A stretch of 64,000 nt of DNA, from positions 124,001 to 188,000 of the forward strand of contig NZ_JAALDK010000003.1 of assembly GCF_013366925.1 (NCBI RefSeq), read 5' to 3'. A program made the position numbers and the translations under genes. Positions within the stretch are counted from its first letter, which is position 1. Every line of letters begins with the position of its first letter. The notes below the pieces were generated by a model. It did no database searches, was not told the DNA's origin, and was given only the letters and a program-made list of their open reading frames with translations. This DNA is from Paraburkholderia youngii. GTDB lineage: Bacteria > Pseudomonadota > Gammaproteobacteria > Burkholderiales > Burkholderiaceae. Below are positions 2,368-35,112 of this stretch, one piece after another.

Positions 2368-2377
2368 GCGTAGGTTT

Positions 2378-7327: not shown

Positions 7328-7337
7328 CGTGGGTTTC

Positions 7338-9800
7338 CTAGTCGAGAGTCAGCATTTCGCGCACGTAGGCCTCGCGCCAGTCCGGTGCGCCGGACGTGTA
7401 GTGCCTGTCGAGCACCGCCTGCGCGCGGCCGTCCGAGCGCAGCACCGCGAGCGTTTCCTTCGGGAAGCTCGCCTGCAGCATGCGGGTCTGGTCCGGCGTC
7501 ACCCATAGGTAATCGCGGTTCGGCACGGCGTTGGCCAGCATGTCGATCTGGTGTTCCGTCAGCCCGAACAGGTCGCGATACAGATGCAGGTTGTTCTTTG
7601 CATCCTTGTTGGGCAGATAGAAAATGTTGGGAATGTTTTCCTTGAGAATTTCGAAGTTCGGAATCCGCGCCACCTGGGAGAGCGACTGCGTCGCGAGCAG
7701 TAGCGTCGCATTCAGCTTGCGGATGGTGACCGCCCAGATTTCCAGGCGCTGATAGAAGCGCGGATACTGGAAGAAGAAGCCCGCCTCCTCAACTTCGATG
7801 ACCGTATAGCGCTTGCCATCAAGCCACTGCGCGATACGGTAGAACGCGTAATCCATGAACAGCGCCGCGGCCACCGGATAGTTCTGGAACAGGTCGCCCA
7901 TTTCGATCGAGATGTCGTCGGACAGCGAGAAGGCGTCGTCGATGTGGTCGAAGAAACGGCCATTCTTTTCGCCCTGGGTCCAGACCGCGAGCCGCTCGCG
8001 CAGCTCGATCGGCAGAAGCGCATTGAGGTTGGACAGTGTCCAGAGGTCGCGCGGGTAGCCCGTACCCAGGACCGTGACCTTCTCGAAAATCGTGCGCTGC
8101 TGTTGCGGCGAGCATCGGAAGTCATCGTCCTCGATCGCCATCTGTACCCATTCGGCGACGTACGGGAAGTGCTTTGAATCGTGCAGCAGCGAAAGCGGAT
8201 TGACCGAGGTTCCGGCCTCAAAGCGCCCCGTCGCGTCGACGAACCGTCCGCCCGCGAGCAGGGTCGGGATGCGGGTCGAGCGGTCCTTGTCGAACCGGAT
8301 TCGCCGCGCCTTGTGGCGCCCGGTCTGGGAGACCAGGAAATTCAGGAAGATCGACTTGCCCGCGCCGATCGGGCCGATCACGAGCGCATGCGACTTGCCG
8401 CCCGGATGGTGCAGACTCACGCGCTGAAGGGTCTTGTGACGCGTCGGCAGCATGGTAAGCGGCCCGGTCTTCTCGCCGGACTGCTGCGTGAGCCACGCAT
8501 TGACCGTGTCGCCTTCCGAGACGCTGCGCACCGGGGCGATGTCGGACACCGCCGGCGTTTCGACAAACTGCAATCGCCTCTGCTGGTCCCATCGGCCCGG
8601 CAGTGTCGTCTGCCAGGCGGCGAACAGATTGTCCCGCTCGAGGATCACGCCAAATCCAGCGTTGCCGATGCGGCCGATCACTTCGCGCGTGGCATCGTCG
8701 CATTCGTCGACGGTATCGCCATAGACGATCACCGAGACGTTCGCAAAGCCATACTGCTGCCCGTCCGCAACCAGTTTGGCCAGCGCCTTTTCGGCTTCGT
8801 CAGCGAGGCGCTCGCGGCCTTCGTCGTTCTTCTGCTCTTCCTTCGAGAAGTAGGCCTTGAGGATCGACCAGGGGTTGAATGCCGCGACCTTATAGAACTT
8901 GCGGATCTTCTCGATGTACGCGCTCGCCTTCGTTGTGTCCAGAAAGCGGAACATCACGCACACATCCAGTTCGGCGTCGACTTCGGCGAGCACGTCCAGT
9001 GCGGCTTCCTGAAAGCCCATCCACTCCTTGACCGCGATGATCTTCGCGTACCGTTTGCCGTGCGCCGATTCGAACATCAGCGTGTCGGCACCGATCGTGA
9101 CTTCGCTCTCGGTCAGGTGCGTATCGAGCATCGTGACGGGATACCGCACGCGCCGCGGCGGCACCGACGGGTTGGCCGCCTGATGGAGGAACGCGAGCGC
9201 GTTCTGCAATTGCAGACGCTTCATCCTCAGGCGCGTGACACCCCCTTTGAACGCATCGATCACGCCTTCAAACCGCTTGATGTCAGACGTCAGTCGCTCG
9301 ATATCAAAGGCGAAGGCACTGCGCGCAAGGACCGAGTCCTTGATCGTCTCGAAGATCGCGCGCGGCATCGATTTGCCGCCCACCGTCATGTGATACGCGA
9401 CCTTCTCGAAGATCTTGTTGACGCCGGTCTCGGGCGTGAAGGCGAGTGCGAGCGAATGCGTGTTGCGGAAATACCGGCCGCTCGCGACATGAGCGCGGTT
9501 GATTTCGTCGACACGCGCGTCCATCGAGGAATCGAAAGTCCCGCCGATGTCTCCCTTGACGCGCCGGTGCGAGAGCTTCCACCACGCCGTAATCCGGTGG
9601 TCGAAATTCTTGCAGGCGTGATCAAGGTTGTCGCGCGCGGCCGAAATATCGGAGGCGTTTGGGCTGTCGGCGTCCACGCCTTCCAACGTATAGACGGTCA
9701 GCAGCGACCCGTCCTTGTCGAGGATCAGTTCGGGCGTGACCATCGTCGCCCACGGGGCGATCTCCTGGATCGAGCGGCGCTTCAGGCTCTTCTTCAGCAT
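7338..9800 (-). CDS. trbE: Conjugation ATPase TrbE/VirB4
   Basis: The 820-residue cytoplasmic ATPase energises pilus assembly and substrate transfer. It has the N-terminal CagE/TrbE/VirB4 region, a Walker A motif IGPIGAGKSIFLNFL near residue 473 and a Walker B motif VIEVEEAGFFF near residue 667, followed by LLLATQSLSQVARI. Length matches the family (about 800-850). Its ATG overlaps the end of trbD by seven bases. No frame break is visible, so the main transfer ATPase seems functional. Confidence 0.92.
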   Translation of the reverse strand: MLKKSLKRRSIQEIAPWATMVTPELILDKDGSLLTVYTLEGVDADSPNASDISAARDNLDHACKNFDHRITAWWKLSHRRVKGDIGGTFDSSMDARVDEINRAHVASGRYFRNTHSLALAFTPETGVNKIFEKVAYHMTVGGKSMPRAIFETIKDSVLARSAFAFDIERLTSDIKRFEGVIDAFKGGVTRLRMKRLQLQNALAFLHQAANPSVPPRRVRYPVTMLDTHLTESEVTIGADTLMFESAHGKRYAKIIAVKEWMGFQEAALDVLAEVDAELDVCVMFRFLDTTKASAYIEKIRKFYKVAAFNPWSILKAYFSKEEQKNDEGRERLADEAEKALAKLVADGQQYGFANVSVIVYGDTVDECDDATREVIGRIGNAGFGVILERDNLFAAWQTTLPGRWDQQRRLQFVETPAVSDIAPVRSVSEGDTVNAWLTQQSGEKTGPLTMLPTRHKTLQRVSLHHPGGKSHALVIGPIGAGKSIFLNFLVSQTGRHKARRIRFDKDRSTRIPTLLAGGRFVDATGRFEAGTSVNPLSLLHDSKHFPYVAEWVQMAIEDDDFRCSPQQQRTIFEKVTVLGTGYPRDLWTLSNLNALLPIELRERLAVWTQGEKNGRFFDHIDDAFSLSDDISIEMGDLFQNYPVAAALFMDYAFYRIAQWLDGKRYTVIEVEEAGFFFQYPRFYQRLEIWAVTIRKLNATLLLATQSLSQVARIPNFEILKENIPNIFYLPNKDAKNNLHLYRDLFGLTEHQIDMLANAVPNRDYLWVTPDQTRMLQASFPKETLAVLRSDGRAQAVLDRHYTSGAPDWREAYVREMLTLD

Positions 9801-10105
9801 GGCAGGTCCTGATCAAATCCATATGGACGTTTGAACCGGGCCGAAAACTTCGCAGTCGGCAGGGGCTCATACACGTCCGCGTAGCGGTTGTAGACGAGCA
9901 TGACCTGCTTCCACCACGGATCTTTCGAGCTTTTCCAGCGCAGCAGCCAGTGCACCGCGATCCCAACGACGAGGAAGGTTGGCGTCATGCTGGTGTAGCA
10001 CAGCAGCATGGTCATCGTGCCGTTGGCGATCGCGAGTCCGCGATCTGCCCCGCCCATCTGGCGAGGCAGCGAAAGAGAGCGGCTGACGCGGGTAGGCTGA
10101 CGCAT
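9794..10105 (-). CDS. trbD: Conjugal transfer protein TrbD/VirB3
   Basis: This is a 103-residue inner-membrane protein. Two hydrophobic segments (AIANGTMTMLLCYTSM and TFLVVGIAVHWLLRW) are followed by a short basic tail containing KDPWWKQVMLVY. Size and position between trbC and trbE are those of VirB3-type proteins, which anchor VirB4 to the membrane. It starts six bases after the trbC stop and overlaps trbE by seven bases. Confidence 0.85.
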   Translation of the reverse strand: MRQPTRVSRSLSLPRQMGGADRGLAIANGTMTMLLCYTSMTPTFLVVGIAVHWLLRWKSSKDPWWKQVMLVYNRYADVYEPLPTAKFSARFKRPYGFDQDLPC

Positions 10106-10111
10106 GTGAGC

Positions 10112-10504
10112 TTACGTACAGGTGTAGGTGACGTGGAGATGGTTCTTCACGATCGGAATTGCGCACGCCGCAAGGCCGAGACCAACGAAGACCGTCGAAA
10201 TGATCTTGCCGATCGTGCTTTCCGAGTTGCCGATCGCGACGGCGCCGACGATGATCAGCACGATGCCGATGCCGTAAAGCCACGGGCCACTAATGTAGGA
10301 CGAGATCAGACAGATGACGTCCGTCGCGGAGCCGAGGTCGGTCAGGTCGACGGCCGAGGCGAACGGCGCGAATGCGGCGAGCGAAGCCGCAACGACGGTC
10401 GAACGCAGCTCACGGCGGGTGAGGAAGCGCGTCCAGATAAAGCGGCTCAACGCTCGCGTGCGCTCGCGCACGGTAGCGAGAAAATCAGACGGGTACTTCT
10501 TCAT
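10112..10504 (-). CDS. trbC: Conjugal transfer pilin TrbC/VirB2
   Basis: The 130-residue pilin precursor has a long basic N-terminus (about 35 residues), a hydrophobic signal segment ending AAFAPFASA, and two membrane helices (WLYGIGIVLIIVGAVAIG and IISTVFVGLGLAACAIPIV) separated by a short basic loop. This is the pro-pilin layout of TrbC/VirB2. The start MKKYPSD at 10504 is preferred over the ATG nine bases upstream because a GGAG lies at proper distance. The stop is six bases before trbD. Confidence 0.85.
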   Translation of the reverse strand: MKKYPSDFLATVRERTRALSRFIWTRFLTRRELRSTVVAASLAAFAPFASAVDLTDLGSATDVICLISSYISGPWLYGIGIVLIIVGAVAIGNSESTIGKIISTVFVGLGLAACAIPIVKNHLHVTYTCT

Positions 10505-10522
10505 AAACGGCACTCCGATGGG

Positions 10523-11569
10523 TTAGAAAACGCGGTTGAGAACGTAGTCGCGGTCCTTGAAACCCTTGATTTCGAGGATTTCAGAAACGTGACGCAGCTC
10601 GCCTGTGCGGCGAAGATGAATGACGTAGTGGAAGCAGTCGGCCACCGCCTTGCGCATGTCCGCCAGTTCCCACCGGCTGCCCGGCGGTACGCCGAGCATC
10701 GCGAGACTTTCGAGGCGGCTCAGCCCGCCACGCGCGTCGTTGGCATGGATCGAACCCATGCCGCCGTCGTGGCCGGTGCTCAGCGCCTGGATGAAGTCGT
10801 AGGCCTCGCCGCTTCGGACTTCGCCGACGATGATGCGGTCGGGCCGGAAGCGCAGACACAGGGCGACGAGCAGCTGGGTCGTGACACCCTTGTCGGGGTT
10901 TGAGAGCAGCCGCACGCGATTGGGCGCGGTCAGCTTCAGTTCCATCGTGTCCTCGACCGTGATGACGCGTTCGTCTTCAGGAATCTCGGCATTGAGCGCG
11001 TTGAGCAGGGTGGTTTTGCCGGACGAGGTGCCGCCGGCGACGAGGACGTTGCGGCGTGCCCGCACCATCGCGCTCAGGGCCTCGCGCAAGGCATCGTCCT
11101 GGATGCCCGGAGGGAAGAGATCGAGTTCCTTTTCCTTGCGGGCGTTCGTGAGCGAGAACGCGCCCATGTTCACGTAGTCGCTAAGCGATAGGTGCTTGTC
11201 GCGGTGCTTGCGGATCGAAAGCGCATTGCCGTCGATCGCGGTTGGCCGCATCACTGATGCGATACGCAGATTCTTGTGGCCTGCGTTGATGATCCCCTGC
11301 GCGGTGCCGGCGACCGCCGACTTGTCGACCGATGCCGCCAGCGCGCTGATCGCGCCGTCAAGCACCGCCTCGTTAAGCGTGAGGTCAAGCCGATGCATCT
11401 TGCCGCGGCGCTCGATCCAGATGTTGTTGAAATCGTTAATCATGATTTCAGCAACGTCGGGCGCCTCAAAGCACTCGCGCAACGGACGCAGCGACTCGAA
11501 AAACATGCGGACCGCGCTGTCCTCGAGCGGGCGCAGTTTGAGCAGGGGATTGTCGGTAGCCTCGGACAT
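10523..11569 (-). CDS. trbB: Conjugation ATPase TrbB/VirB11
   Basis: The 348-residue hexameric traffic ATPase is the first gene of the operon. It has a Walker A motif VAGGTSSGKTTLLNAL near residue 175, an Asp box (ITVEDTMELKL), RPDRIIVGEVRSGEA and a His box (GGMGSIHAND), all canonical for VirB11/TrbB. The start MSEATDN at 11569 gives the family length; the frame could extend to 11686 but that N-terminus is atypical. The stretch 11570-11838, shared with the divergent plus-strand gene, must hold the operon promoter and contains repeat copy B. Confidence 0.92.
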   Translation of the reverse strand: MSEATDNPLLKLRPLEDSAVRMFFESLRPLRECFEAPDVAEIMINDFNNIWIERRGKMHRLDLTLNEAVLDGAISALAASVDKSAVAGTAQGIINAGHKNLRIASVMRPTAIDGNALSIRKHRDKHLSLSDYVNMGAFSLTNARKEKELDLFPPGIQDDALREALSAMVRARRNVLVAGGTSSGKTTLLNALNAEIPEDERVITVEDTMELKLTAPNRVRLLSNPDKGVTTQLLVALCLRFRPDRIIVGEVRSGEAYDFIQALSTGHDGGMGSIHANDARGGLSRLESLAMLGVPPGSRWELADMRKAVADCFHYVIHLRRTGELRHVSEILEIKGFKDRDYVLNRVF

Positions 11570-20735: not shown

Positions 20736-22022
20736 TCAGCAGATCACTTCCATCATTTCGCCAAAAGGTGCTTTCTTCGCGCGCCTGAGCGGCACGGTCG
20801 AGGCCCACAGGACGGGATAGGACGGTTCATCGGTCGGAAACGCTCCATCCATGTCGGTGAGATAGACCAGAAACGTGGGTTGAATGCCTTCGTCGGCCAG
20901 CCGTTTGAACGGATCGACAAACGAAGTGCCTCCCCCGCCACGCACCGGTAGCAGGTCGACCGCGTCGCCGCGCTCGAAGATCTGCACCTGCTTCACGCGC
21001 GTATCGCAATCCAGCACGATCAGCCGCCGCGGCCGCACAGTCTCATTCACAACGAGGATTTCCGCGTCGAACTGTGCCTGCGTCTCGTCAAACACCGAAC
21101 CGCTGGAATCGCGCACGAACACCGCATCGCCAACCGCCGGTTCGTTAAGCGACGGCAGATACAGCCCCATGTGCAGATACCGGCGATTGGGCATCGCGAA
21201 AGTGTAGTCAGTCGGCGACGATTCCTGCGCAAAGCGTTGCAGGATCGCGCGCCAGTCAACCACAGGTTCCGCCGCCACCTGGACCATGCCTTCCAGAGAG
21301 CCGCCCAGTCCGCCCCGCATCTTCGCCGCTTTCGCGGCCTGTAGGACGGCGACCTTCCAGTCGGCTTCCTTCTGTGCCTTGTCGTCCCCTCTGTATTGAC
21401 GGACCTCGCCACAGGAGGGCGCAGCCTCGGGAGAAGTGCCGGACTCGGGTGTTGCGGACCGAGTGGTCGCGCCGTTCGCGGATTGTGGCGGGCTGTTGCC
21501 CCCGGGTGTGCCGCCTGGCTGTTGAGCCGACTGTGGAGTCGACTGCTGGCCAGGCTGCGCATCCGGTTTGCCATCATCCTTCTTACCGTTGCCCTGCTGC
21601 TTTTCCTTCTGCTGCTTTTCCTTCTGCTGCTTCTCCTGCGCGAGAATGCCGTAAATCTCCTCGGCCGACTTGCCCTTGAAGCGGGCATCGACGAACACGC
21701 CCTTTGGTAGCAGCATGCCTGCGTCGAGCACGATTGGATTGATCGCATAGTCACACGCGTCGTTCCAGAGTTTCGGATCGCGATCGCCCTGGCGCCAACA
21801 GTGGCCGTTGGCCACGTGCAGGACTTCATGCGCCAGCACGCCGCGTGTCTCCAGATCGTTCAGGCCGCCGAGGTACGCCGGGTTGTATCCCAGCGATTCC
21901 CCGTCGGTCCAGAACGTCCTGCACGACGGATCTTCGACCACCTTCAGACGCAAAGCGAGTGCGCCGAAAAACGGCTGGTCGAGGACCAGCGCCGTGCGTT
22001 GCTTCGAGATGCGCGGGTCCAT
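20736..22022 (-). CDS. Metallopeptidase-like / VWA-like protein (DUF2201 type)
   Basis: The 428-residue protein has three parts. The N-terminal domain carries a zinc-site motif AHEVLHVANGH (HExxH at residues 65-69). A Gln/Lys/Pro/Gly-rich linker spans about residues 135-215. The C-terminal VWA-like domain has a MIDAS-type DSSGS near residue 300 and GGGGTSF further on. This is the layout of DUF2201 putative metallopeptidases. It lies eight bases after the DUF3150 gene and is last of the triad with the MoxR-like ATPase. In MoxR-VWA systems the ATPase is thought to remodel a target bound by the VWA protein. What this one acts on is unknown. Confidence 0.75.
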   Translation of the reverse strand: MDPRISKQRTALVLDQPFFGALALRLKVVEDPSCRTFWTDGESLGYNPAYLGGLNDLETRGVLAHEVLHVANGHCWRQGDRDPKLWNDACDYAINPIVLDAGMLLPKGVFVDARFKGKSAEEIYGILAQEKQQKEKQQKEKQQGNGKKDDGKPDAQPGQQSTPQSAQQPGGTPGGNSPPQSANGATTRSATPESGTSPEAAPSCGEVRQYRGDDKAQKEADWKVAVLQAAKAAKMRGGLGGSLEGMVQVAAEPVVDWRAILQRFAQESSPTDYTFAMPNRRYLHMGLYLPSLNEPAVGDAVFVRDSSGSVFDETQAQFDAEILVVNETVRPRRLIVLDCDTRVKQVQIFERGDAVDLLPVRGGGGTSFVDPFKRLADEGIQPTFLVYLTDMDGAFPTDEPSYPVLWASTVPLRRAKKAPFGEMMEVIC

Positions 22023-22029
22023 GGCTACC

Positions 22030-22980
22030 TCACGCGACGAGTCGCAGAAGCGGCGTCGGCTCCGGCTGGACAACCTGCTCCAGCGGCGCGAACGTCGAAA
22101 GCTGGTTCGCCACCGGCTCCGGTGTCCCGCCCATGAACGCTGCCATCAGCCCCTCGATTTCCGAGGCCTTGGCCGCGACCTGCGAACGCAGCACGCTCGA
22201 CTCCTTCAGATCCGCACCCGTGTGAACCGCGAGATGCGTCTTCGCCTGTTCGAGGATGTGGCTGAGCTTCGGGTCGTTCGTGAAGTTCAGCTTCGGCAGC
22301 AGCTCGCACAGTTCGCGCACCTGGTTGGTGACGCCCAGGCGAACATCGGTGGCACCGTACAGCTTGTCGGCCAGCTTCGAGACGGCCTCGTACAGACGCC
22401 CGACCAGATCATTGTTCGCCGTCGAGATCGAGGCAAGCACGTGCTGGTCGATTTCCGAACGAAGATCCGTCAGCACGTCGGCCGGCAGATCGACGCCAAA
22501 CTGGCTCGCGTCAGGAAACGGCAGCACCGCGAGCTTGACGCCGAACTTCTCTGACATGCGGGCAAGCGTGGGATAGTCCGACTCGTTGAACAGCCCGTTC
22601 AGTTCCACCCGGGCCTGTTCCTTGAGATTCAGGTAGTCGGTCAGGAAGACGGAAACGGCGAGATCGAACTCATCCTTCATCCTGCGCATCTGGTCGGCGA
22701 AGTCCATGTAGATCGCCGTCGGCAGCAGACGCACGCCCAGCTGTTCGTACTTTAGCGAGTGGTCGTAGTGATAGCGGCGAATGCGATTGCCGATCGAAAC
22801 CACCTCCTTGTAGCTCGGCGCATGCTCGGGCAGCAGGCGCTTGTTGAAGCGCCCGATGTCCTTTGCCTGATGATTCTTCTCGACTTCTTCGGTCGCTTTC
22901 ACGTCGAAGCAGCGCGCCTGCCAGGCGGATACCGTGACGGCCGACAGCATGACGCGGGATTTCAGTTCAGTGATGTTCAT
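22030..22980 (-). CDS. DUF3150 family protein
   Basis: The 316-residue soluble protein starts MNITELKSRVMLSAVTVS. It is mostly helical, with YHYDHSLKYEQLGVRLLP near residue 70 and a long charged middle. Sequence and neighbourhood match DUF3150, a family of plasmids and phages with no assigned activity. TGGAG lies just ahead of the ATG, and the terminator of the upstream ATPase gene lies about 40 bases before it. The downstream VWA gene starts eight bases after the stop, so these two are one transcript. Confidence 0.72.
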   Translation of the reverse strand: MNITELKSRVMLSAVTVSAWQARCFDVKATEEVEKNHQAKDIGRFNKRLLPEHAPSYKEVVSIGNRIRRYHYDHSLKYEQLGVRLLPTAIYMDFADQMRRMKDEFDLAVSVFLTDYLNLKEQARVELNGLFNESDYPTLARMSEKFGVKLAVLPFPDASQFGVDLPADVLTDLRSEIDQHVLASISTANNDLVGRLYEAVSKLADKLYGATDVRLGVTNQVRELCELLPKLNFTNDPKLSHILEQAKTHLAVHTGADLKESSVLRSQVAAKASEIEGLMAAFMGGTPEPVANQLSTFAPLEQVVQPEPTPLLRLVA

Positions 22981-23020
22981 GGAAAACTCCAGAATAGAAA
23001 GGGATTGGATCGAGCAGAAA

Positions 23021-23052
23021 GAAAAAAGCCACGGCGCGAGGCGGGCCGTGGC
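23021..23052 (-). terminator. Terminator between the MoxR-like and DUF3150 genes
   Basis: Read on the minus strand, GCCACGGC pairs with GCCGTGGC and is followed by TTTTTTC. It sits between the stop of the ATPase gene (23087) and the start of the DUF3150 gene (22980), leaving about 40 bases for any promoter. Confidence 0.85.
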
Positions 23053-23086
23053 AGAACGAACAACGGATGAAGCAACAGGCAGCGGC

Positions 23087-24106
23087 TTACTCGCCGCGGA
23101 TGATTTTTCCGATCTCGCCACCCTGCGCGCGGATGAACGCATGGGTGCTCGCCAGTTCAGGCTTGCGACGCACGGCATCACGCGCGAGAAGCGCACCGAA
23201 TTCACGGTGGCCTACGTCGATCAGCCGCTGGTTGTAGGTCAGCACCCGCTCGAAGTTGCCTTCGGTGGAGTGCGCCGCCAGCGCCGAACTGACCGCATAC
23301 AGCGCGGCCGGGGTCTCAGGGATCGGCGCCGTGTCCGGCGACAGAATGATGGCGTCCGGCGACGGCAGCTCGCGGTAGATGGCAAGAAAGCTCATCAGTT
23401 CGCTCGCTGCAGCCTCGCCCACCGAACCCGCGTAGGAGACGAGCTCGAGCGACTTCGGCACGACCGGCATCGTCTTCGCGACGAATCCCCATGTTCGGGG
23501 GCTCGGTGCGTTTTCGATATCGCGCGCGGTCTTCTTCACGGACAGCAGATCCGGCCGGAATCGCAGAAACGCGATCAGTTCGGCAGGAACACCGCTGCGC
23601 ACCGCCCAGGCAGTCCAGTCGGCGATCGAAGGCTCAAGCTCCACCACCGTCGCGAAACGCGAGATGACGGGATCGAGAATGCCCGAGACACCCGCGTTGT
23701 CGTTGCGCCGGTTGGTGGCCGCAACGAACGTGACGCAGTCGGGCAGCGCGTGTTCGCCGATGCGGCGTGCCAGCAGCAGTTGCATCTTTGCCGCCTGCAC
23801 CGCCGGTGATGCCTGGCCCAGATCGTCAAGGAACCAGAGCAGCGGCGTTGTCGCTCTCAATGCGCGCTCGAGATCCCCGAACGGCAGGAAGCGGGCGACG
23901 TTCCCGTCAGGGAATGGCAGGCCCTTCGAGTCCGTGGGGTCTTCAACGACGGGATGGCTGATGAGCAGGTCATGCCCGGTTTCCTGAGCCGCCTGAGCGA
24001 CGATGTCGCTCTTGCCGATGCCCGGAGCCCCGGTGATAAGCACCGGAAGGCGGGCCGGAATGTAGGTGATGAGCAGTTCGCGAAGTTGCGAGGCAGAGAC
24101 TTTCAT
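23087..24106 (-). CDS. MoxR-like AAA+ ATPase
   Basis: The 339-residue AAA+ ATPase has Walker A GAPGIGKSD (about residues 26-34), Walker B LLWFLDDLGQA (about 88-98), sensor 1 FVAATNRR (about 130-137) and the downstream arginine in ILDPVISRF (about 150). The compact size and the order ATPase, DUF3150, VWA protein resemble MoxR-VWA chaperone modules. The start MKVSASQ is chosen because AGG lies eight bases ahead; the ATG 27 bases upstream would place the leader hairpin in the coding region. All nucleotide-binding motifs look intact. Confidence 0.8.
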   Translation of the reverse strand: MKVSASQLRELLITYIPARLPVLITGAPGIGKSDIVAQAAQETGHDLLISHPVVEDPTDSKGLPFPDGNVARFLPFGDLERALRATTPLLWFLDDLGQASPAVQAAKMQLLLARRIGEHALPDCVTFVAATNRRNDNAGVSGILDPVISRFATVVELEPSIADWTAWAVRSGVPAELIAFLRFRPDLLSVKKTARDIENAPSPRTWGFVAKTMPVVPKSLELVSYAGSVGEAAASELMSFLAIYRELPSPDAIILSPDTAPIPETPAALYAVSSALAAHSTEGNFERVLTYNQRLIDVGHREFGALLARDAVRRKPELASTHAFIRAQGGEIGKIIRGE

Positions 24107-24226
24107 GGGGTACCTGAAAAGGAAAAGCCCCACGAAACAACGCCCCCGGGGGGACGTGGTCCCTGAGGGGCGAGTTGGATGTGCCGCGGATGCGGCGCGT
24201 CGATGCGTCCTGGAGACGCGAAAAAA
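24107..24226 (-). promoter_or_regulatory. Structured 5' leader of the MoxR-like gene with hairpin motif copy 1
   Basis: Read on the minus strand: motif GCGTC-loop-GACGCATCGAC (24198-24219), then GCCCCTCAGGGACCACGTCC, GGGGGCGTTGTT, GGGGCTTTTCC and the ATG. GCCCC and GGGGC can close a large stem followed by T's, so it could terminate or attenuate transcription. The same blocks in the same order occur ahead of the DUF3717 gene (24478-24590). Confidence 0.6.
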
Positions 24227-24234
24227 GTTGTGCC

Positions 24235-24477
24235 TTACGCCTTCGCGCCAGCCAGAGCGGCCAGTTGAGATTCGGTAAGGGTTTCGCGCGGCACGGCGGT
24301 CACGCGGTTGAAGATCATGCTGCCGTAGAGATTGGCGAGACAGCGTGCTTCAGCGCACAGCACCGTCACCTCCTCGTCGGAGGTAGCCGGATTGCGGTTG
24401 CGCCACACGTTGATCGCGTTTTCGATCTGGGCGATTGAAACGTCCCGGGTTCCTGAAACAGCGTTCGGATGTTTCAT
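24235..24477 (-). CDS. DUF3717 family protein
   Basis: The 80-residue protein contains SIAQIENAINVWRNRNPA near residue 15, AEARCLANLYGSMIFNR near 43 and LTESQLAALAGA at the C-terminus. This pattern is characteristic of DUF3717, a small family common in Burkholderiaceae with no known activity. It starts MKHPNAVSG with AAGGA ahead of the ATG. The stop TAA is followed within 12 bases by hairpin motif copy 1, so its 3' end and the leader of the MoxR-like gene are contiguous. Confidence 0.75.
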   Translation of the reverse strand: MKHPNAVSGTRDVSIAQIENAINVWRNRNPATSDEEVTVLCAEARCLANLYGSMIFNRVTAVPRETLTESQLAALAGAKA

Positions 24478-24590
24478 GGGGTGTCCTTGAAGGAAGTGCC
24501 CCCTGAACAACGCCCCAAGGGACGTGATCCCCAAGGGCAGAATTGTTGCCGTCTCCGGCGGGTCGATGCGTCATGGACGCGGGTAACAGA
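24478..24590 (-). promoter_or_regulatory. Structured 5' leader of the DUF3717 gene with hairpin motif copy 2
   Basis: Read on the minus strand: CGCGTC-ATG-GACGCATCGAC (24563-24582), then GCCCTTGGGGATCACGTCCC, TTGGGGCGTTGTT, GGGGGC, TTCC and ACCCC just before the ATG. It parallels the leader at 24107-24226 block by block, although the genes that follow are unrelated, pointing to a shared regulatory element. Confidence 0.6.
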
Positions 24591-24677
24591 GCCCAGTATG
24601 GGCGGCCGCTGCGCGAAGGTTTGCCCGAATGATGAGCAGATTGACCCCGCTTAGACTTATCGCGTGACGCCAGGCCG

Positions 24678-24707
24678 AAAAAAAAAGCCGGCGCATATGC
24701 GCCGGCT
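24678..24707 (-). terminator. Rho-independent terminator after the gene at 24727
   Basis: A perfect 20-base palindrome (GCCGGCGCAT and its complement, 24687-24706) is followed on the minus strand by nine T's. It lies about 20 bases after the stop of the gene ending at 24727. Confidence 0.9.
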
Positions 24708-24726: not shown

Positions 24727-25185
24727 TCAGAGCAACGCTGTCTGCGCGGCCCGTGCTGCATCGATTCTCGCGATCATCGCCGCTTCCTGCTCGCGATGCC
24801 GTCGGGACTTCTCTTCGCCCACGCCGTTGTGCTGCTCGATCACGTAGGCGAAACAGACAGGATTGGCCGGACCGCGCCACGCCTTCCAGGCCTCCAAGAT
24901 CCGCGCGCGCACGCCGGGCGTGCATGCGAAGTACTCGCGACGCAGGCGACGCCATTGCTGGGCGCGCAGATCGCGCATGCGTTGCTCGCTCTGGTACAGC
25001 AGCCGTTCGCGCCGTTCCCGCTCTTCATCAACCGAAAGCGCCTGGGGCGTTTCGATCTGATCGCTGAAGAGCGGGTAGGCACGTTCGATCTTTTCGCGAG
25101 CCCGATCCTGACGGCTCAGATGCAAGGCTTGCATCCGCGAAGTCCAGCGAAGACCTTCGACCTTGGGTGTACGATCGAATCGCAT
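24727..25185 (-). CDS. Hypothetical protein, charged, coiled-coil-like
   Basis: The 152-residue protein is rich in Arg/Glu/Gln (RQDRAREKIERAY, DEERERRERLLYQSEQRM) and is probably helical throughout. No family recognised. It lies 12 bases after the stop of the gene at 25198 and is followed by a strong terminator, so it ends that transcript. Confidence 0.6.
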   Translation of the reverse strand: MRFDRTPKVEGLRWTSRMQALHLSRQDRAREKIERAYPLFSDQIETPQALSVDEERERRERLLYQSEQRMRDLRAQQWRRLRREYFACTPGVRARILEAWKAWRGPANPVCFAYVIEQHNGVGEEKSRRHREQEAAMIARIDAARAAQTALL

Positions 25186-25197
25186 CGTCCCCTCCCC

Positions 25198-25785
25198 TCA
25201 GGCTGCAAGCCGCTCGAGCATCGCGCGGGCGTAATCCAGCGTGCCATCCTTTACCTGCAGACGACGCGCCTCGTTAAGCTCAGTGTTGACGAGCACGTAC
25301 TGTTTGCTCTCCCCCTTGCGCCAGTCCCGAATCTCCCGGAACCCCGATGCGATCGCGTCGACATGCTGGGCGCCATCGGTGACGACGCCGTCGCCGCGCT
25401 TATAGCGGGCATTCTGCGCGGCTTCCTTCGCACGCTGCGCATCCTGCTCCTTGCGCTCCGCCTGCTTGCGCGAAAGCTCGCTCTCTTCCCATGCGGCCTG
25501 CGCAGTCCCGTCGAGTCCGCACAGTTCGAAAATCGCACGACGCCGGGACTTAGCCGTCAGGCCTCGCAACTTCAGGCCATGGAACTCGAGCACGACCTGC
25601 TTGCTGCTCAGGTTGTGATCGTCAGGCGTGTCGAGGATGTTCAGCAGACTTGCCACATCGCGCGACTCCAGTGCAACGGCTACACGGTTCGGCCATTCGA
25701 ACGTTTCGCGCCCGTATGCGAGCAACGCCATCGAACGTTCCAGCGCGTGCCGACGGGCACTGAGCCGCCCCTGCGTGCGCTGCAT
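25198..25785 (-). CDS. Hypothetical protein
   Basis: The 195-residue protein has a helical charged segment (ESELSRKQAERKEQDAQRA, about residues 101-120) and a C-terminal part FREIRDWRKGESKQYVLV. No known domain recognised. Its ATG lies 30 bases after the stop of the gene at 25816; the frame is open slightly further upstream but without a better start. It is part of the same minus-strand string. Confidence 0.6.
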   Translation of the reverse strand: MQRTQGRLSARRHALERSMALLAYGRETFEWPNRVAVALESRDVASLLNILDTPDDHNLSSKQVVLEFHGLKLRGLTAKSRRRAIFELCGLDGTAQAAWEESELSRKQAERKEQDAQRAKEAAQNARYKRGDGVVTDGAQHVDAIASGFREIRDWRKGESKQYVLVNTELNEARRLQVKDGTLDYARAMLERLAA

Positions 25786-25815
25786 GTCCGCATGGTCCAG
25801 CTTTTTCTCCCGGCG

Positions 25816-26709
25816 CTAGTCGGCGATCGGGTCACGAAGCCGCGCGGCCAGCGCATTGACCGGCTGTCCGACCGATACCGGCTTGTCGAACATCTCCGGC
25901 AATGGGTCAACCTGCAGGAGGCCCGCCGCGAACAGGGCGTCATCGACCTCGATGAAGTCCGGTGCATTGGATACGCCGGCGACAGCGGCCACCAGAGCAT
26001 CGACCGTTTCTGCCGTGACCGGCTGTTTCGCCGCTCGCATCACGGACAACAGCTGATGCAGTTTCGCCGCCGGTAGCCGCCCGCGCAGCGTCGGAACGTC
26101 GAGCAACGTCGACGCCCACTCGAGGTCGTAACAGAATGCCCTTTCCATCGCCCGGTATTCCGAGAGCACCGCTTCGGGAATTTGCTCGTTGCGCAGCAGC
26201 GCATAGGCGATGTGCACCTCATGTCGTCCGTTCGTGCTGCCTCCCGGCACACAAGGACCGCCGCTGGCAAATCCGAAGCGTTCCATGGCCACGTCATTGA
26301 ATAGCGACAGCAGATTGAAGAACTGGCGCGCTTCACGTGCGGCCGATTTTTGCGCATCGATCTGGTCGGTCGAGAGAAACCGCGTTGGCGTACGCGCAAG
26401 ATCGAAAATTGCGAACAGCAGTTCCCAGTGCGATGCGCGGATCTGCCAGGGCTTCGGCTCAGGGCCATAGGTCGATAGCCACAGCGAACGGACTTCGTCG
26501 AACATTGCCGCGACGATTTCTGCGACCGTGCCGTCACGACGGATGCCGAGCGTGCCGTTGTAGCGCGTCACGCGTACTGCGGCCGCACCGCCGTCCAGGT
26601 CAATCAAAGTGGTCTCAGTTGCCTGGACCGCCTCATTGACGAACAGCGCGAACACCCCGGAGAGCGTCGGGGTCGTGAAGACTTGGCCGGGAATCGAGAG
26701 TTGGTACAT
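25816..26709 (-). CDS. Hypothetical protein of the backbone operon
   Basis: The 297-residue protein starts MYQLSIPGQVFTTPTLSG. The N-terminal half reads like a globular domain (TLIDLDGGAAAVRVTRYNGT) and the rest is helical. The longer reading from 26925 is rejected because it would overlap the next gene upstream. I recognise no family. Stop and start spacing (30 bases to the next gene, 43 from the previous) indicates an operon. Confidence 0.6.
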   Translation of the reverse strand: MYQLSIPGQVFTTPTLSGVFALFVNEAVQATETTLIDLDGGAAAVRVTRYNGTLGIRRDGTVAEIVAAMFDEVRSLWLSTYGPEPKPWQIRASHWELLFAIFDLARTPTRFLSTDQIDAQKSAAREARQFFNLLSLFNDVAMERFGFASGGPCVPGGSTNGRHEVHIAYALLRNEQIPEAVLSEYRAMERAFCYDLEWASTLLDVPTLRGRLPAAKLHQLLSVMRAAKQPVTAETVDALVAAVAGVSNAPDFIEVDDALFAAGLLQVDPLPEMFDKPVSVGQPVNALAARLRDPIAD

Positions 26710-27258: not shown

Positions 27259-28625
27259 TTATGAGAGGCGGGGTGCACCCAGCCGATCGAAGCATGCGAG
27301 GGTCAGCACGCTATTCAGGAGTTTGCCGCTGTTACGCCACCAGCGACGGCTGTTCGCCGCCACCTGTTGCGCCACAGCGGGCGGTGCCCCCAGCGCACGC
27401 AGTTCCCGGTAGATGGTCGGGCCGCGGCGCCATTGCTTAAGCTGGATGACACGCAACCGGTGACGCATCCACTCGTCCAGCACCCGCCAGACTCGTGACG
27501 TTTGCGCCAACCGGAAGTACGCCTTCCAACCCAGCACATAGCGCCGTAACCGTTCCACCACGTCCTTCATGCTGCGTCCGCCGTTACGGCCGGTCAGTTC
27601 ACGAATGCGGCGTTTGAACGCCAGCAGCGGTTTGGCCGCCACCTTGCGCTTGATGACACCACCGGACGCTACCCACAGGCTGTAGCCCAGAAACTTGCGA
27701 CCGAACACACTGGCCACCGCGCTTTTGGTCTCGTTGAACTTCAGCCGCAGTCGCCCATACAGACGGCGCAGCAGCGCCATCACCCGTTCGCCAGCGCGAC
27801 GGCTGCGAACATACACATTCGCATCATCGGCATAACGCACGAAGCAGTGGCCGCGCCGTTCCAGTTCCTTGTCCACCTCATCGAGCAGCACCTTGGCCAG
27901 CAACGGCGATAGCGGCCCGCCTTGCGGCGTGCCCTGTTCGCGCTGCTGAATCACGCCACCATCCATGATGCCGCTGTTCAGATACGCCCGGATCAGCCGG
28001 ATCACCCCGGCGTCCCCGATACGTTTCTGTAGACGGTCGATCAGGATGTCGTGGTTGACCCGGTCGAAGAACTTCTCCAGATCAACGTCCACCACGATTC
28101 GCCGGCCCGACTGCGCGGCAAGCACCGCGTCATGCGCACGCGTCCGGGCCGGAAACCGTAGCTGTGCTCGCTGAAGCCAGGGTCCAGAACCGGTTGCAGC
28201 ACCTGCAGCAGCGCCTGCTGGATCAGCCGGTCCGTCACCGTTGGGATGCCAAGCTCGCGCTCGCCTCCTTCCGGCTTCGGAATTGTCACCCGCCGTACCG
28301 GACTGGGCCGGTACGTCCCCTTCAGCAACTGTTCGCGGATCGCGGGCCACGCCGTCACCAGATGGCGCGACGTCTGGTCAATGTCCAGACCGTCAACGCC
28401 AGCAGCTCCCTTGTTGGCCCGTACCCGTTTGAACGCCTGCTTCAGGTTCTCTTTCGTCAGCGCCGCCATCAGCAGCGATGACCCTGTGCCCCCGGACTCA
28501 TGGCGCGGGCAACAGGCTTCGTCGCTCACGGACATAGGCGCAGCTTCACCGCGCGTGCCTCCCGCTCGCCCCGCTTGCGCGGGCATCTGACGCAATTCCT
28601 GTCGCATCGACATGGCGCTGGACAC
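27259..28625 (-). pseudogene. ltrA: Group II intron reverse transcriptase/maturase, frameshifted
   Basis: The N-terminal frame (about 28490 down to 28130, AALTKENLKQAFKRVRANKG to YGFRPGR) continues in another frame (from about 28130 to 27259, RAHDAVLAAQSGRRIVVDVD). The YADD catalytic motif is present (HCFVRYADDANVYV) and the maturase region is complete. One missing base in GGACGC-GTGCGC would restore GFRPGRSAHDAV. The protein is therefore broken at residue about 125 unless this is a sequence error. It belongs to the outer intron. Confidence 0.82.
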
Positions 28626-28683
28626 TCCCTCCCGTTCGGCCCTTCGTCACCAGCTTCGGTCTCATCGACCTGTCCTGTGACTG

Positions 28684-30098
28684 TTGGGTCGGAGGAGGCG
28701 CGCTGACGCGCTGGCCTCCGTCCGCCGCGCAAACTGCACGTGCCGTTTTCCGGCATGCAGCTTTCACGAAGATGCAGCATGCTGGGACGCAATAGAAGGT
28801 ATCAGTTGCACAAGATTGACCAACCCGAGCTCGCCATACAGCCGCGCCTCGGGCAAAACCTTCCAGCCCATGTTGCGCCAGCGCTTGAAACGATGCGACC
28901 AGATGCGCCGCACGATTCATCGGTTGAGCCGGTTGAAGATTCTCCGGACGTGGGAGCGCTTGTAGTAGTGCCCCCAGCCCCGCAGGATGGGATTGAGCCG
29001 TCCAATCCAGATCTTGCGCAAAGCGTCATGTGTCGATCGCCCTCGCCGATAGCCGAAGTTGGCGTCATCGAATACCGGTTCGAAGATCGGCTCAAGACGG
29101 TTGAGCAGCGCCTGCTGGCATACGCGATCGTAAATCGACGGTATGCCGAGCTGGCGGAACTCCCCCGGTTTGCCGACTTTCGGGATCGAGACCTGCCGGA
29201 CCGGTTGCGGCTGATAGGTCCGCGCACGCAGTTCTGCCTGCAGACGGTCCAGATGCTGGTCCGCCTGTTCGGCAAAGTCTGCCACGCTGATTCCATCGAC
29301 ACCGCCACTGCCCCGATTGGCCCGGACCCGCTCCCAGGCGACTTCCAGATTCTTCCGTTGATAAATCTTGTCAATTAATGAGTGGACCTTCCTTGCTTCC
29401 ATCGGGTTGATCCAGTCAGACAGTCTCCTCGGGCGCGGATGTACGGGTATTTCGCTCATGGAACTGATCCTCCTCCGTGTCCTTACTCACTGTCGTCCGG
29501 GTTCTTCCCAATCATCTTCGCCGGCTGCCTTCCCCGACCCACTTCCGTCGCCGATCGCTCGGTCACGTAGTTTTGGCCACGCTTCAGGTACTACTCAGCC
29601 GTCCGACTACTGGCACAGCGCCGCTCACCACTTCGCTCCTCGCTTATAGGCTTGCTTCCCGCGGTGCCACCCGCGGACTGTGCCAGTTCTCCTGGGGTCA
29701 CACGCTGTTCTTCCGCACCGTGCCGTCCGCAAACACCTTGGTGCGGTGGGTGAATGAGAACGCCTTCGCCTCCATAGTGCAGGCTCGACCTTGCCCCACC
29801 TTTGGCCGACCGGTTCGTCATCGGGGCAGCCCCCATCGACTACGGCCCGGTACTTCTCCTCATGCCCTTCGGATTCCGCCTCACGGCGGACACCCTGCCC
29901 TCCGGAGTACTGCGAGATGATGGCTTCAGGTCCGCCTTGTCCGTATCCGGCTTTCGCCTTCGTGCCCAGTTAGACGTCTCCATACCTTCCCACCTCTCTC
30001 CGGCCAGCGAGGCATTACCCCCGCTTTCGGATATGGCGCCCCTCATCCGGGCGCCAGAGGGACTTCAACCCTCCCGAACAACGCGCTGCCCAGCGCAC
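28684..30098 (-). mobile_element. Inner group II intron, deleted derivative
   Basis: On the minus strand it starts GTGCGCTGGGCAGCGCGTTG (from 30098), followed by GGGTTGAAGTCCCTC. It carries an RT gene with a large internal deletion, then a domain V hairpin (28731-28767: AAAGCTGCATGCCGG, loop AAAA, paired with GCACGTGCAGTTT) and a domain VI-like stem ending near 28684. It is inserted in the 5' domain of the outer intron, right after GAGGCCGTAGT. The 3' boundary is good to about ten bases. It could still splice in trans if domain I is intact, but cannot make its own maturase. Confidence 0.72.
28764..29459 (-). pseudogene. ltrA: Inner-intron reverse transcriptase/maturase with internal deletion
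   Basis: The protein begins MSEIPVHPRPRRLSDWIN and runs through the RT N-terminal domains (QLGIPSIYDRVCQQALLNRL, YRRGRSTHDALRKIW). It then jumps directly to the maturase region IGRLNPILRGWGHYYKRS, skipping the whole catalytic palm with YADD. A TGA at 28917-28919 replaces an expected Trp codon; beyond it the frame reads IVRRIWSHRFKRWRNMGW to a second stop at 28764. It is inactive. Confidence 0.82.
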
Positions 30099-30432
30099 AC
30101 TACGGCCTCTGCTGACTTCTCGCTCCGGCTCGACGCCGTTGCGCTTTCAGGCACGAGGCGAGATCTCCCCAGGTAAGAACGCACTCCTTCATCGCACAAC
30201 CGCCGCATTTACGCCGCCTCGCCTTGGTCACGAGAGCTTCGCGGTCTATTGCCCGCTCACCCTGCCCGGCAGCGCCTCCTATGCGGTTCTTGTTCATCGG
30301 CTCACGATTTACGCTCCACGCTTCCTCCCCACATTCGGTCGCCCTCATGCAGTTGCGCTTCACTTCATTCGCTGTGACCAGCTTATGGCGGGACTTGCAC
30401 CCGCAAGAGTGCGCCCATGCTGGGCGCACAAC

Positions 30433-30462
30433 AAAAAGGCCACACCCGGAGGTGCAGCCTTT
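30433..30462 (-). terminator. Terminator that serves as group II intron insertion site
   Basis: Read on the minus strand, AAAGGCTGCACC, a short loop and GGGTGTGGCC are followed by TTTTTG. It lies about 55 bases past the stop of the 36-residue gene (30517). The intron begins immediately after TTTTTGTT. Confidence 0.8.
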
Positions 30463-30516
30463 AGATGGATTGAGGACCGGCGACCTCGCCAGCCCACTTT
30501 TGACAATCAGATGACG

Positions 30517-32920: not shown

Positions 32921-33051
32921 CTGAACAATACCTCGCAAAGGACGTTCTTGAGATCATCACTGTCTTCAGCGCGCGGCTGTATGGATCGCGCTCGCGCAAG
33001 ACTCAGAAGCTGCTCGACGGTATGCGGCAGGCTGTAAAGGATTCAAAGTGA
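32921..33051 (+). pseudogene. tnpA: Serine-recombinase TnpA of IS607, C-terminal remnant
   Basis: The frame reads AEQYLAKDVLEIITVFSARL then YGSRSRKTQKLLDGMRQAV to TGA at 33049-33051. This is the conserved tail of IS607 resolvase-like transposases. The catalytic serine domain is absent. It overlaps the tnpB start by two bases. Confidence 0.7.
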
Positions 33052-34247
33052 TCCTCGCCCATCGCATTGCACTCGACCCGAACAACACGCAGGCGACGTA
33101 TTTCGCGCGCGCTGCCGGGACGGCTCGCTTCGCGTACAACTGGGCGCTCGCCGAGTGGAAGCGGCAGTACGAGGCGTACAAGGCTGACAGGACGCGGTCC
33201 AAGCCTTCGCAGATGGCGCTGCGCCGTCAACTCAACGCCACCAGGCGCCAGCAGTTCCCCTGGATGCTTGAGGTGACGAAGTGCGCGCCGCAACTCGCAA
33301 TCATCCAGCTCGGCGAGGCATTCAAGCGCTTCTTCTCCGGCCAGAATCGCTACCCGACGCAGCGCAGGAAAGGCGTCGATGATCGCTTCAGTCTTTCCAA
33401 CGATCAGTTCTCCATCGAAGGTTCACGCATTCGCATTCCCAATCTGGGGTGGGTGCGCATGCGTGAGCCGTTGCGCTTCGTGGGCAAGATCATCTCGGCC
33501 ACTGTTTCGCGCAAGGCCGACCGCTGGTTCGTGAGCATTACCGTCGAGGTTCTCGAGGCTTCGCACCTATCCAGAGCCGAAAACCAAGGCGCGGTTGGTG
33601 TGGATCTCGGAGTTTCCTCGATGGCGACGCTTTCGACCCGCGAGAAGATCCTCGGCCCCAAGGCGCACACGGCCCTGCTCGATCGTCTGCGCCGCATCTC
33701 GCGTAGCCTGTCGCGCAAACAGAAAGGCTCCGCGAACCGCCGCAAGGCCCGCATGAAGCTGGCGAAGCTGCATGCCCGCATCAGCAATATCCGGTCGGAG
33801 GCACTCCACAAACTCACGTCCGACCTCACGCGCCGATTCGATACGCTCGGCATCGAGGATCTGAACGTGCGCGGCATGATGGCAAACCGTCGCCTGGCGC
33901 GCTCCATCGCCGACATGAGTTTCTACGAATTCCGTCGGCAGCTGAAGTACAAGGCTGACATGCGCGGCGGCCGGGTGATCGTTGCAGACCGCTGGTTTCC
34001 GAGCAGCAAGACGTGCGCGGATTGCGATCACAAGGTCGATGTGCTGCCGCTCAAGGTGCGCGAATGGACGTGCCCGGCGTGCGGTGTGGTGCATGACCGG
34101 GACGTGAACGCGGCAACCAATTTGAAGATCATGGCCGTGAGTTCCACGGTTTCAGCCTGTGGAGAGGAAGGCTCTGGCCGTCGTCGCAAGACGGCGGTGA
34201 AACCGGCCTCAGTGAAGCAGGAACCAGACAGCAAGCTCGCTGCATAG
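33048..34247 (+). CDS. tnpB: TnpB RNA-guided nuclease of an IS607/IS605-type element
   Basis: The 399-residue protein starts at GTG 33048. It has the helix-turn-helix N-terminal part (ARAAGTARFAYNWALAEW), a split RuvC domain with GVDLGVSS (Asp about 186), GIEDLNVRGM (Glu about 270) and VHDRDVNAATN (Asp about 352), and a zinc ribbon TCADCDHK/TCPACGVV between the last two. All three acidic residues and four cysteines are present, so it may be an active nuclease. TnpB proteins use an RNA from the element's right end, which here would include the hairpin near 34240-34267. No TnpA able to move it is present. Confidence 0.85.
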   Translation: MILAHRIALDPNNTQATYFARAAGTARFAYNWALAEWKRQYEAYKADRTRSKPSQMALRRQLNATRRQQFPWMLEVTKCAPQLAIIQLGEAFKRFFSGQNRYPTQRRKGVDDRFSLSNDQFSIEGSRIRIPNLGWVRMREPLRFVGKIISATVSRKADRWFVSITVEVLEASHLSRAENQGAVGVDLGVSSMATLSTREKILGPKAHTALLDRLRRISRSLSRKQKGSANRRKARMKLAKLHARISNIRSEALHKLTSDLTRRFDTLGIEDLNVRGMMANRRLARSIADMSFYEFRRQLKYKADMRGGRVIVADRWFPSSKTCADCDHKVDVLPLKVREWTCPACGVVHDRDVNAATNLKIMAVSSTVSACGEEGSGRRRKTAVKPASVKQEPDSKLAA

Positions 34248-34318
34248 CTTTAGTCAGCTATGCAGCGGTTTGTATAGGTTCTGGAGAACGGTCAAAGATG
34301 GATGCCGGGCGAGCCGGC

Positions 34319-34345
34319 TGGGTCGATGCGTCAGAGACGCGGTAG
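34319..34345 (-). promoter_or_regulatory. Hairpin motif copy 3
   Basis: Read on the minus strand: CTACCGCGTC-TCT-GACGCATCGACC. It matches copies at 24198-24219, 24563-24582 and 35088-35112. It lies about 70 bases past the terminator at 34414-34445 and just outside the right end of the IS607 remnant, which therefore separated it from the gene it served. Confidence 0.55.
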
Positions 34346-34888: not shown

Positions 34889-34999
34889 TCAATACAGGTC
34901 GCGCTTCTTCGACTTCACGATCCGCAGCAGGCGATCGTGTGTTTCGTACGATAGGCAATGCATCTGCATGCCGATGCGAAGCAACCGATTGAGGTTCAT
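34889..34999 (-). CDS. Small basic peptide gene
   Basis: The 36-residue frame starts MNLNRLLRIGMQMHCLSYE and ends RIVKSKKRDLY. GGAG lies at proper distance ahead of the ATG (CTGGAGCATC). Codon use is GC rich and the terminator at 35060-35083 lies about 60 bases upstream, as for other genes in this string. It may be a real small protein or a leader peptide for the gene at 34866. Confidence 0.45.
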   Translation of the reverse strand: MNLNRLLRIGMQMHCLSYETHDRLLRIVKSKKRDLY

Positions 35000-35059
35000 G
35001 ATGCTCCAGTCTTAGACGGGAACACGCCCGCAACGGGTGTGAACCCGTCGGGGTGAATG

Positions 35060-35112
35060 AAAAGCGCCCGCGTGCTGCGGGCGTTTAGTCGATGCGTCAG
35101 TGACGCGGTAGG
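35060..35112 (-). terminator. Terminator preceded by hairpin motif copy 4
   Basis: Read on the minus strand: motif CTACCGCGTC-ACT-GACGCATCGAC (35088-35112), then TAAA, then stem CGCCCGC/GCGGGCG (35065-35083) and CTTTTC. Motif and terminator are directly adjacent, which supports a joint regulatory role upstream of the small gene at 34999. Confidence 0.7.

Follow-up and report, generated by a model that had tools for sequence, protein, structure and literature searches.

What do three consecutive plasmid genes, coding for an AAA+ ATPase, a middle protein and a DUF2201 protein, do together in the large replicons of Burkholderiaceae? The question is raised by a 64,000-nucleotide stretch of Paraburkholderia youngii DNA (contig NZ_JAALDK010000003.1, positions 124,001 to 188,000; hereafter the window), in which this trio runs 5' to 3' in the order given, behind a DUF3717 gene, with all four genes on the minus strand (Table 1). 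The original prediction had described these four genes, and that observation was confirmed, whereas its interpretation, an undescribed plasmid-encoded remodelling or protease-like system, was partly supported. Indeed, N4-like and jumbo phages have already been described as carrying the ATPase-DUF2201 pair (papers are cited here by PubMed Central (PMC) number), so the system cannot be called undescribed; what is new is the setting, in which the pair comes with a DUF3150-like protein, belongs to the core of PRTRC/VirB plasmids and stands behind a structured RNA leader. We tentatively read the trio as one AAA+/VWA remodelling machine that acts for replicon maintenance and is co-regulated with the PRTRC system through this leader, and we rate this the leading explanation without holding it to be probable outright.

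The ATPase appears to be of the MoxR/Midasin-like kind. The closest solved structures for its profile are the AAA domains of Midasin (Rea1; E 2e-33, profile search), which bears out the MoxR/VWA-type remodelling proposed at the outset, and it matches PHROG 1297 'ATPase' at 1.2e-66. By itself it reaches no Pfam cut-off (AAA_5, 21.2 bits against a cut-off of 22; bpMoxR, far under), and of 12 aligned ATPase sequences, 10 matched AAA_5 and 6 matched AAA_3 at E <=0.01. The Walker and sensor motifs are intact as claimed, with the Walker A lysine, Walker B aspartate and sensor-1 asparagine unchanged throughout this alignment, in which K32, D94, N132, R150 and R204 are all invariant. Since Midasin is a MIDAS-partnered AAA+ protein, its closeness to the ATPase profile argues for a remodeller; the same logic of a MIDAS-bearing partner recurs in the trio. 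Midasin, however, is a single giant polypeptide of ribosome assembly, while the trio consists of separate bacterial proteins.

The DUF3150 identity given to the middle protein was not supported by Pfam. The window protein matched no Pfam, PHROG, NCBIfam or PADLOC model and did not reach the cut-off of DUF3150 (PF11348), and in a 12-sequence alignment of middle proteins the Pfam DUF3150 model matched two sequences, at best with E 0.077; the name stems from RefSeq or depositor records of some relatives. The predicted structure (AlphaFold2 pLDDT 81.7, pTM 0.75) has a mixed N-terminal part and a C-terminal helical bundle.

The DUF2201 protein clearly exceeded the Pfam cut-offs of both its families, DUF2201_N ('putative metallopeptidase', PF13203; 2.7e-49, 168.6 bits, cut-off 23.2) and the VWA-like DUF2201 (PF09967; 8.5e-22, 78 bits, cut-off 26.4). 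Its zinc site reads HEVLHVANGH and its MIDAS DSSGS, within the pattern DxSxS...T...D of the VWA fold. Across aligned relatives the MIDAS residues are nearly or fully invariant, and HExxH is exact in 54 of the 60 close sequences and in 14 of the 15 diverse ones; it is destroyed in three of the close relatives, three more carry HDxxH, and the Variovorax protein has lost HExxH and retained MIDAS. Thus the expectation that both sites would be conserved was borne out for MIDAS and failed for HExxH in a few relatives, and, because HExxH is lost there, the sequences indicate that peptidase activity is not universal, so that 'protease-like' is not the common denominator of these proteins. The sequence profile also matched an M48 peptidase (2.6e-4), the VIA list being occupied by the VWA part. 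A stronger match, to PHROG 1314 (2.6e-96), carries the label 'HNH endonuclease', which is at odds with Pfam and looks like a recurring misannotation in phage records.

These searches bear on the idea that the trio inserts a metal cofactor, as do Mg-chelatase and cobaltochelatase with their AAA+ plus VWA subunits, given that the DUF2201 profile weakly matched the Mg-chelatase 60 kDa subunit (E 0.033) and the ATPase matched phrog_249 'porphyrin biosynthesis' (0.0021). The chelatase match, however, is confined to the VWA part, no tetrapyrrole enzyme was found among the 45 features of the Paraburkholderia sprentiae plasmid stretch used for comparison, and we consider this role very improbable.

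The trio is conserved as a unit. In tblastn searches of 72,556 plasmid records, the ATPase was found in 105 (44 with at least 80% cover), the middle protein in 41 (39) and the DUF2201 protein in 72 (53). When species genomes were scanned by pattern for the middle protein, an approach limited to close relatives, 33 loci came up, every one from Burkholderia, Paraburkholderia or Caballeronia. The three genes are consecutive and on the same strand in 32 of them; in the 33rd the contig breaks off immediately upstream of the middle gene. Since order and strand are so constant, the linkage is not due to chance, and the genes do form a conserved neighbourhood outside this locus, as had been proposed for checking. 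A DUF3717 gene stands ahead of the trio in 8 of the 33 loci. Moreover, the trio was found on Variovorax and Rhodovastum plasmids, and in Simplicispira with eight annotated genes separating the ATPase from the middle gene; in a class-wide sample of 185 genomes the middle protein was detected in its own genome only. A similar trio may also occur on IncA/C plasmids, but none is annotated between 95000 and 143963 of IncA plasmid pRA1. The ATPase-DUF2201 pair, with no match to the middle protein, was present on Synechocystis (pSYSA), Thermus, Sphaerotilus and Rhodococcus plasmids.

The neighbourhood itself suggests another role, that of a conjugation accessory assembling or recycling the VirB-type channel or the relaxosome: a gene for an ATPase of the type IV secretion system (T4SS) family lies downstream of the trio in 28 of the 33 loci, and in the window a T4SS block adjoins the trio, which also confirms the plasmid-encoded setting on this contig (C3). 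Nevertheless, the ATPase-DUF2201 pair occurs on plasmids typed non-mobilizable (Synechocystis pSYSA, Thermus) and in phages, which do not conjugate, with DUF2201 matches in 613 phage records; in addition, the conjugation type of Simplicispira differs (MPF_F). We therefore regard a conjugative function as unlikely, if the foremost of the alternatives.

Phages provide the closest known relatives of the pair. In the kind represented by N4 gp24-gp25 (Schitoviridae), RaK2 and PA5oct, an AAA+ ATPase lies near a DUF2201 metallopeptidase-VWA protein, as in the trio; in N4 these are tabled as 'putative ATPase' and 'vWFA' with functions unknown (PMC2784036), a gp25 homologue is listed as pfam13203 (PMC6992544), and DUF2201_N is reported in Delftia phage RG-2014 (PMC5735904). 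Among four phage records inspected, an ATPase is annotated near DUF2201 in Pollock, RaK2 and PA5oct, and phage G has the DUF2201 protein with no ATPase annotated within the 9 kb inspected. One DUF2201 alignment includes six phage or phage-like sequences, each of which retains both HExxH and MIDAS; among the matches listed, identity to the window protein is 27-31%. The phage kind differs from the trio in that the window middle protein was found by tblastn in just 3 of 50,697 phage records, each of 65,014 bases, which we count as one cyanophage lineage, as they have the same length and, when compared with the MinM2 protein, one and the same sequence. In cyanophage MinM2 the order of the trio is kept, with one and three small genes intervening and a primase a few genes away. 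Viral-contig scans with the window middle protein, the window DUF2201 protein and the MinM2 DUF2201 protein yielded no relative, and a scan with the MinM2 middle protein yielded one contig. An Acinetobacter 'plasmid' record was treated as an N4-like phage because of its phage-like size and RNA polymerase gene. CRISPRi-ART was considered as evidence on N4 gp24 and gp25 and set aside, as the two mentions of gp25 in its excerpts refer to phage PTXU04.

For group 2.2 jumbo phages, virion assembly and peptidolytic processing have been proposed for a MoxR-vWA pair whose VWA protein carries an N-terminal metallopeptidase, the same architecture as in the trio (PMC7824862); the excerpted text names no third gene, while the plasmid trio has its middle gene in between. 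Virion assembly was also the sole functional proposal for DUF2201 proteins that we found in open-licence PMC text. A trio acting as an assembly or processing chaperone of this type would accord with the shared domain layout and with the PA5oct ATPase being marked ESI-MS/MS (electrospray ionization tandem mass spectrometry) in its record, which may mean that it was detected in virions. On the other hand, plasmids have no virion, HExxH is lost in some relatives, and in phage Pollock the pair sits amid DNA-metabolism genes (replication initiation protein, dUTPase, exonuclease), and we deem this explanation quite improbable.

The original prediction had also hinted at conflict systems. MoxR-vWA ternary conflict systems share with the trio an AAA+ protein, a VWA protein and a third protein (PMC7159879), and the trio could accordingly be pictured as a switch that releases an effector upon invasion, a picture to which the three-part layout and the occurrence of some distant pairs near DUF262 or Sir2 genes would lend themselves. 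However, the third component in those systems, as the excerpts describe it, is of the VMAP, iSTAND, FtsH or beta-propeller type, whereas that of the trio is DUF3150-like, with no effector found. No defence system was detected by PADLOC among seven proteins, the sole match being GajB to the DUF3717 protein (E 0.034), and eight proteins scanned in Pfam (the trio and neighbours) contained no effector domain; VMAP, iSTAND, FtsH and beta-propeller models gave no match above cut-off in either set, and bpMoxR, as said, lay far below its own. Furthermore, the trio occupies the same plasmid-core site across genera instead of being patchy, and we judge a conflict module improbable.

The resemblance of leaders between the ATPase and DUF3717 genes, noted beforehand, proved to be more than a resemblance: the same structured RNA element precedes both genes and recurs at many sites on both trio-bearing plasmids of this genome. 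Its layout is P0 (GCGUC, a loop mostly of 3-5, GACGC), an AUCGA tag, usually P1, then P2, P3 and the start codon, mostly four hairpins in 105-120 nt. A covariance model built on 33 copies gave 15 matches in the genome at E <=1, eight of them at E <0.001. Of the 15, nine are on C3, five on a second plasmid contig, C4, and one on contig C1 (E 0.38); thus 14 of 15 lie on two plasmids that make up 11.6% of the genome. Across 150 family genomes, the leader (E <=1e-3) was found in 19 and the middle protein (E <=1e-10) in 12, all of them among the 19. The leader thus accompanies the middle gene in 12 of 12 genomes and occurs in 7 of the 138 that lack this gene (Fisher 2.9e-13, with genomes that are not independent, the P. 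youngii genome included, and the middle gene as the only trio gene searched). Copies cluster, eight occurring on one contig of 361,011 bases. The genes behind them, in a tally that excludes 19 P0 sites without a recognised start, are those for the ATPase, DUF3717, PRTRC parB and a lipoprotein-like product, and further types labelled by their first residues (MILY/MFGLY, MKLP, NQSG, MSKKS/MSRKS, MYRA, MKST, MNLN), although the one genome in which the MYRA type has been seen up to now lacks the middle gene. In four genomes in which the middle protein was not found, ATPase-type leaders were recognised by eye (L094, L107, L113, L117), which would fit a loss or replacement of the trio downstream of these leaders.

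The leader structure is well supported. No Rfam family covers the copies scanned: Rfam 15 gave no match at E <=5 in window positions 22950-24700, 20 further loci gave sbcD RNA alone at E <=0.1, beside the leader head rather than on it, and eight more loci at gathering scores gave sbcD twice and one toxic small RNA. Folding z-scores of nine single leaders ranged from -3.99 to -4.75 in six, and the other three scored -2.02, -1.37 and -1.47. Of 61 leaders, 55 have a tandem pair of hairpins that runs up to the start codon, compared with 18 of 41 control genes and a mean of 14.25 (maximum 22) in 20 shuffled sets, although some hairpin no more than 9 nt from the start codon is a common feature, seen in 57 of 61 leaders and 33 of 41 controls; four of the 61 leaders have no start-codon hairpin in their minimum-energy fold. 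In 77 copies aligned by fitting to the model, an alignment that leans towards the structure, both partners vary in 20 of 24 pairs (11.8 in shuffles), and the covariation of 0.243, a value that none of 500 shuffles reached, compares with 0.080 after shuffling and no more than 0.048 after sliding. When 10 parB leaders were aligned independently with MAFFT, the score was 0.100 against 0.070, a value that 2 of 500 shuffles reached; these shuffle counts are not probabilities. The first, highly conserved 33-copy alignment yielded no covariation over shuffles for fold A or an alternative fold B, with 90.8% and 93.6% of cells pairing, respectively, against 40-50% slid. Fold B, which draws on the same GCCCC, is suggested as a possible alternative state, and B-like folding was seen in L023, L027, L040 (DUF3717) and L074. 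An arm-swap test, striking at first, was discarded, as shuffled leaders show a like gap and two of three shuffled runs had unusable means. A Shine-Dalgarno-like core lies in the P3 3' arm of 47 of 57 leaders with P3; a switching mechanism was not supported.

We consider it a plausible, nearly balanced proposition that the leader is a new structured RNA class forming a PRTRC-plasmid translational regulon of Burkholderiaceae, in which the invariant 5' hairpin P0 with its AUCGA tag would mark plasmid transcripts for one plasmid-encoded or host regulator, the gene-specific P2-P3, the second usually with a Shine-Dalgarno core, would set translation, and the partition genes and the trio would be co-produced on replicon need. 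If so, it would be a rare case of a single RNA element controlling many plasmid backbone genes. We found no publication on the leader or the trio, and nothing on PRTRC together with MoxR, in open-licence PMC text.

The leader is also what ties the trio to the PRTRC system, since it precedes both the ATPase gene and parB, is concentrated on plasmids in this genome and occurs in all 12 sampled genomes with the middle gene. The two systems share plasmids, and PRTRC genes lie inside the fetched flank in 14 of the 33 loci; PRTRC consists of other proteins, however, and is found on many plasmids without the trio. At least 34 of 40 listed middle-gene plasmid records are also among the best 60 of 380 PRTRC ThiF records, the other six being absent from those 60.

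MoxR-like AAA+ and VWA protein pairs remodel dedicated protein complexes (PMC7159879). By analogy with this family, the trio ATPase would form a ring onto which the VWA domain of the DUF2201 protein may dock a substrate or adaptor through its MIDAS metal site, with the zinc-peptidase-like domain cleaving or just holding the client and the DUF3150-like protein possibly serving as the adaptor that names it. The target would be a protein-DNA complex that maintains large plasmids, whether of replication, of partition or PRTRC-linked, and trio output would be tied to that of PRTRC ParB by the common leader controlling translation. Such a remodeller is suggested by the gene order kept in the plasmid loci and MinM2 and by near-invariant motor and MIDAS residues; a maintenance role is suggested by the plasmid cases, the DNA-metabolism surroundings in Pollock and MinM2, and the leader common to PRTRC parB. 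Indeed, DUF2201 in the core of virion-free plasmids, with a leader common to the partition cassette, argues for replicon maintenance and offers a tractable test setting. In the boldest form of the regulon proposal made above, the trio and the ThiF-bearing PRTRC cassette, if the latter is indeed ubiquitin-like, would be the two halves of one pathway that tags and remodels plasmid nucleoprotein, paralleling in bacteria the AAA+ remodelling of ubiquitin-marked substrates.

Several points weigh against replicon maintenance under common control with PRTRC. The association may simply have been inherited with a single ancestral plasmid backbone, the trio has no known client, and the mass-spectrometry mark of the PA5oct ATPase has been mentioned. 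Many PRTRC plasmids lack the trio (380 ThiF against 41 middle-gene records), and therefore the trio is not needed for PRTRC. Conversely, no PRTRC ThiF was found on C3, which yet retains the trio, so PRTRC in cis is not required for the trio either; in this genome the ThiF gene was found on C4 only (241,445 bases), where a second trio lies about 11 kb away, and a single cell thus holds two trio plasmids, one apparently without PRTRC. As for translation, the window ATPase leader (AGGU) is among ten without a strict Shine-Dalgarno core in P3, and predicted accessibility of the ribosome site was no different from that of 41 control genes (p 0.07).

Table 1. Features of the window and, in the last three rows, sbcD RNA sites at other loci.
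Feature	Position	Strand	Remarks
DUF3717 gene, 80 aa	24235-24477	minus	Pfam DUF3717 2e-21
AAA+ ATPase, MoxR/Midasin-like kind, 339 aa	23087-24106	minus	first gene of trio
Middle protein (RefSeq-style DUF3150), 316 aa	22030-22980	minus	
DUF2201 protein, 428 aa	20736-22022	minus	N-terminal HExxH metallopeptidase-like domain, low-complexity linker, C-terminal VWA with intact MIDAS
Structured RNA leader of ATPase gene, ending at its ATG	24104-24223	minus	99.5 bits; minimum free energy z -3.99 (24104-24221)
Structured RNA leader of DUF3717 gene, ending at its ATG	24475-24584	minus	100.7 bits; minimum free energy z -2.02
Divergent leader copy, ending at start codon 34999	34997-35110	minus	43.3 bits; z -4.73
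Leader head (P0-P1), by eye like PRTRC parB head	34243-34344	minus	32.3 bits; truncated beside transposase-like frame
Conjugation block: DUF4400 to TraI-domain protein, VirB4, VirB3, T2SS/T4SS-family ATPase	1034-11569	minus	syntenic with pl2WSM5005
Conserved backbone gene	24727-25185	minus	between PRTRC and trio in P. sprentiae, 91% identical
Conserved backbone gene	25198-26709	minus	in-frame stop at 25816-25818
sbcD RNA (C3)	L071:13552-13690		
sbcD RNA (C4)	L075:1843-1994		
sbcD RNA (P. sprentiae plasmid)	L001:40717-40854		

The window is part of C3 (855,103 bases) in a genome of 9.49 Mb, and genes of P. sprentiae plasmid pl2WSM5005, typed conjugative (MOBP, MPF_T), align along it from the T4SS block, whose type II/type IV secretion (T2SS/T4SS)-family ATPase we call VirB11-like, through an H-NS gene at 12361 and the trio to conserved hypotheticals up to 32064. 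The P. sprentiae stretch compared contains nothing that corresponds to about 8 kb between H-NS and the trio (12.7-20.2 kb), and the conserved block is broken up by a group II intron (Rfam D1-D4-3 at 30177-30348) and reverse transcriptase-like frames (27300-30500). The counterpart of the stop-bearing backbone gene in P. sprentiae is one uninterrupted frame of 507 aa. There, the PRTRC cassette lies just past the conserved block, which is not so in the window. Since the parB-like leader head abuts a frame that by eye is transposase-like (33048-34247), the arrangement suggests that C3 may have lost its PRTRC cassette at this site.

On C3, C4 and the P. sprentiae plasmid, sbcD RNA (RF01757, 121-134 bits) lies 194-199 bases downstream of P0-P1 heads without P2-P3, and because such heads precede it on three plasmids, the leader head may be a 5' end that plasmid transcripts share. 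In P. sprentiae, the Rfam family 'Betaproteobacteria toxic small RNA' was matched behind the trio at L001:22662-22720, overlapping the start of the H-NS gene. Finally, a fragment of 38 positions of the middle protein was detected on contig C1 (1114680-1114793, E 2.6e-8), perhaps the trace of an integrated plasmid.

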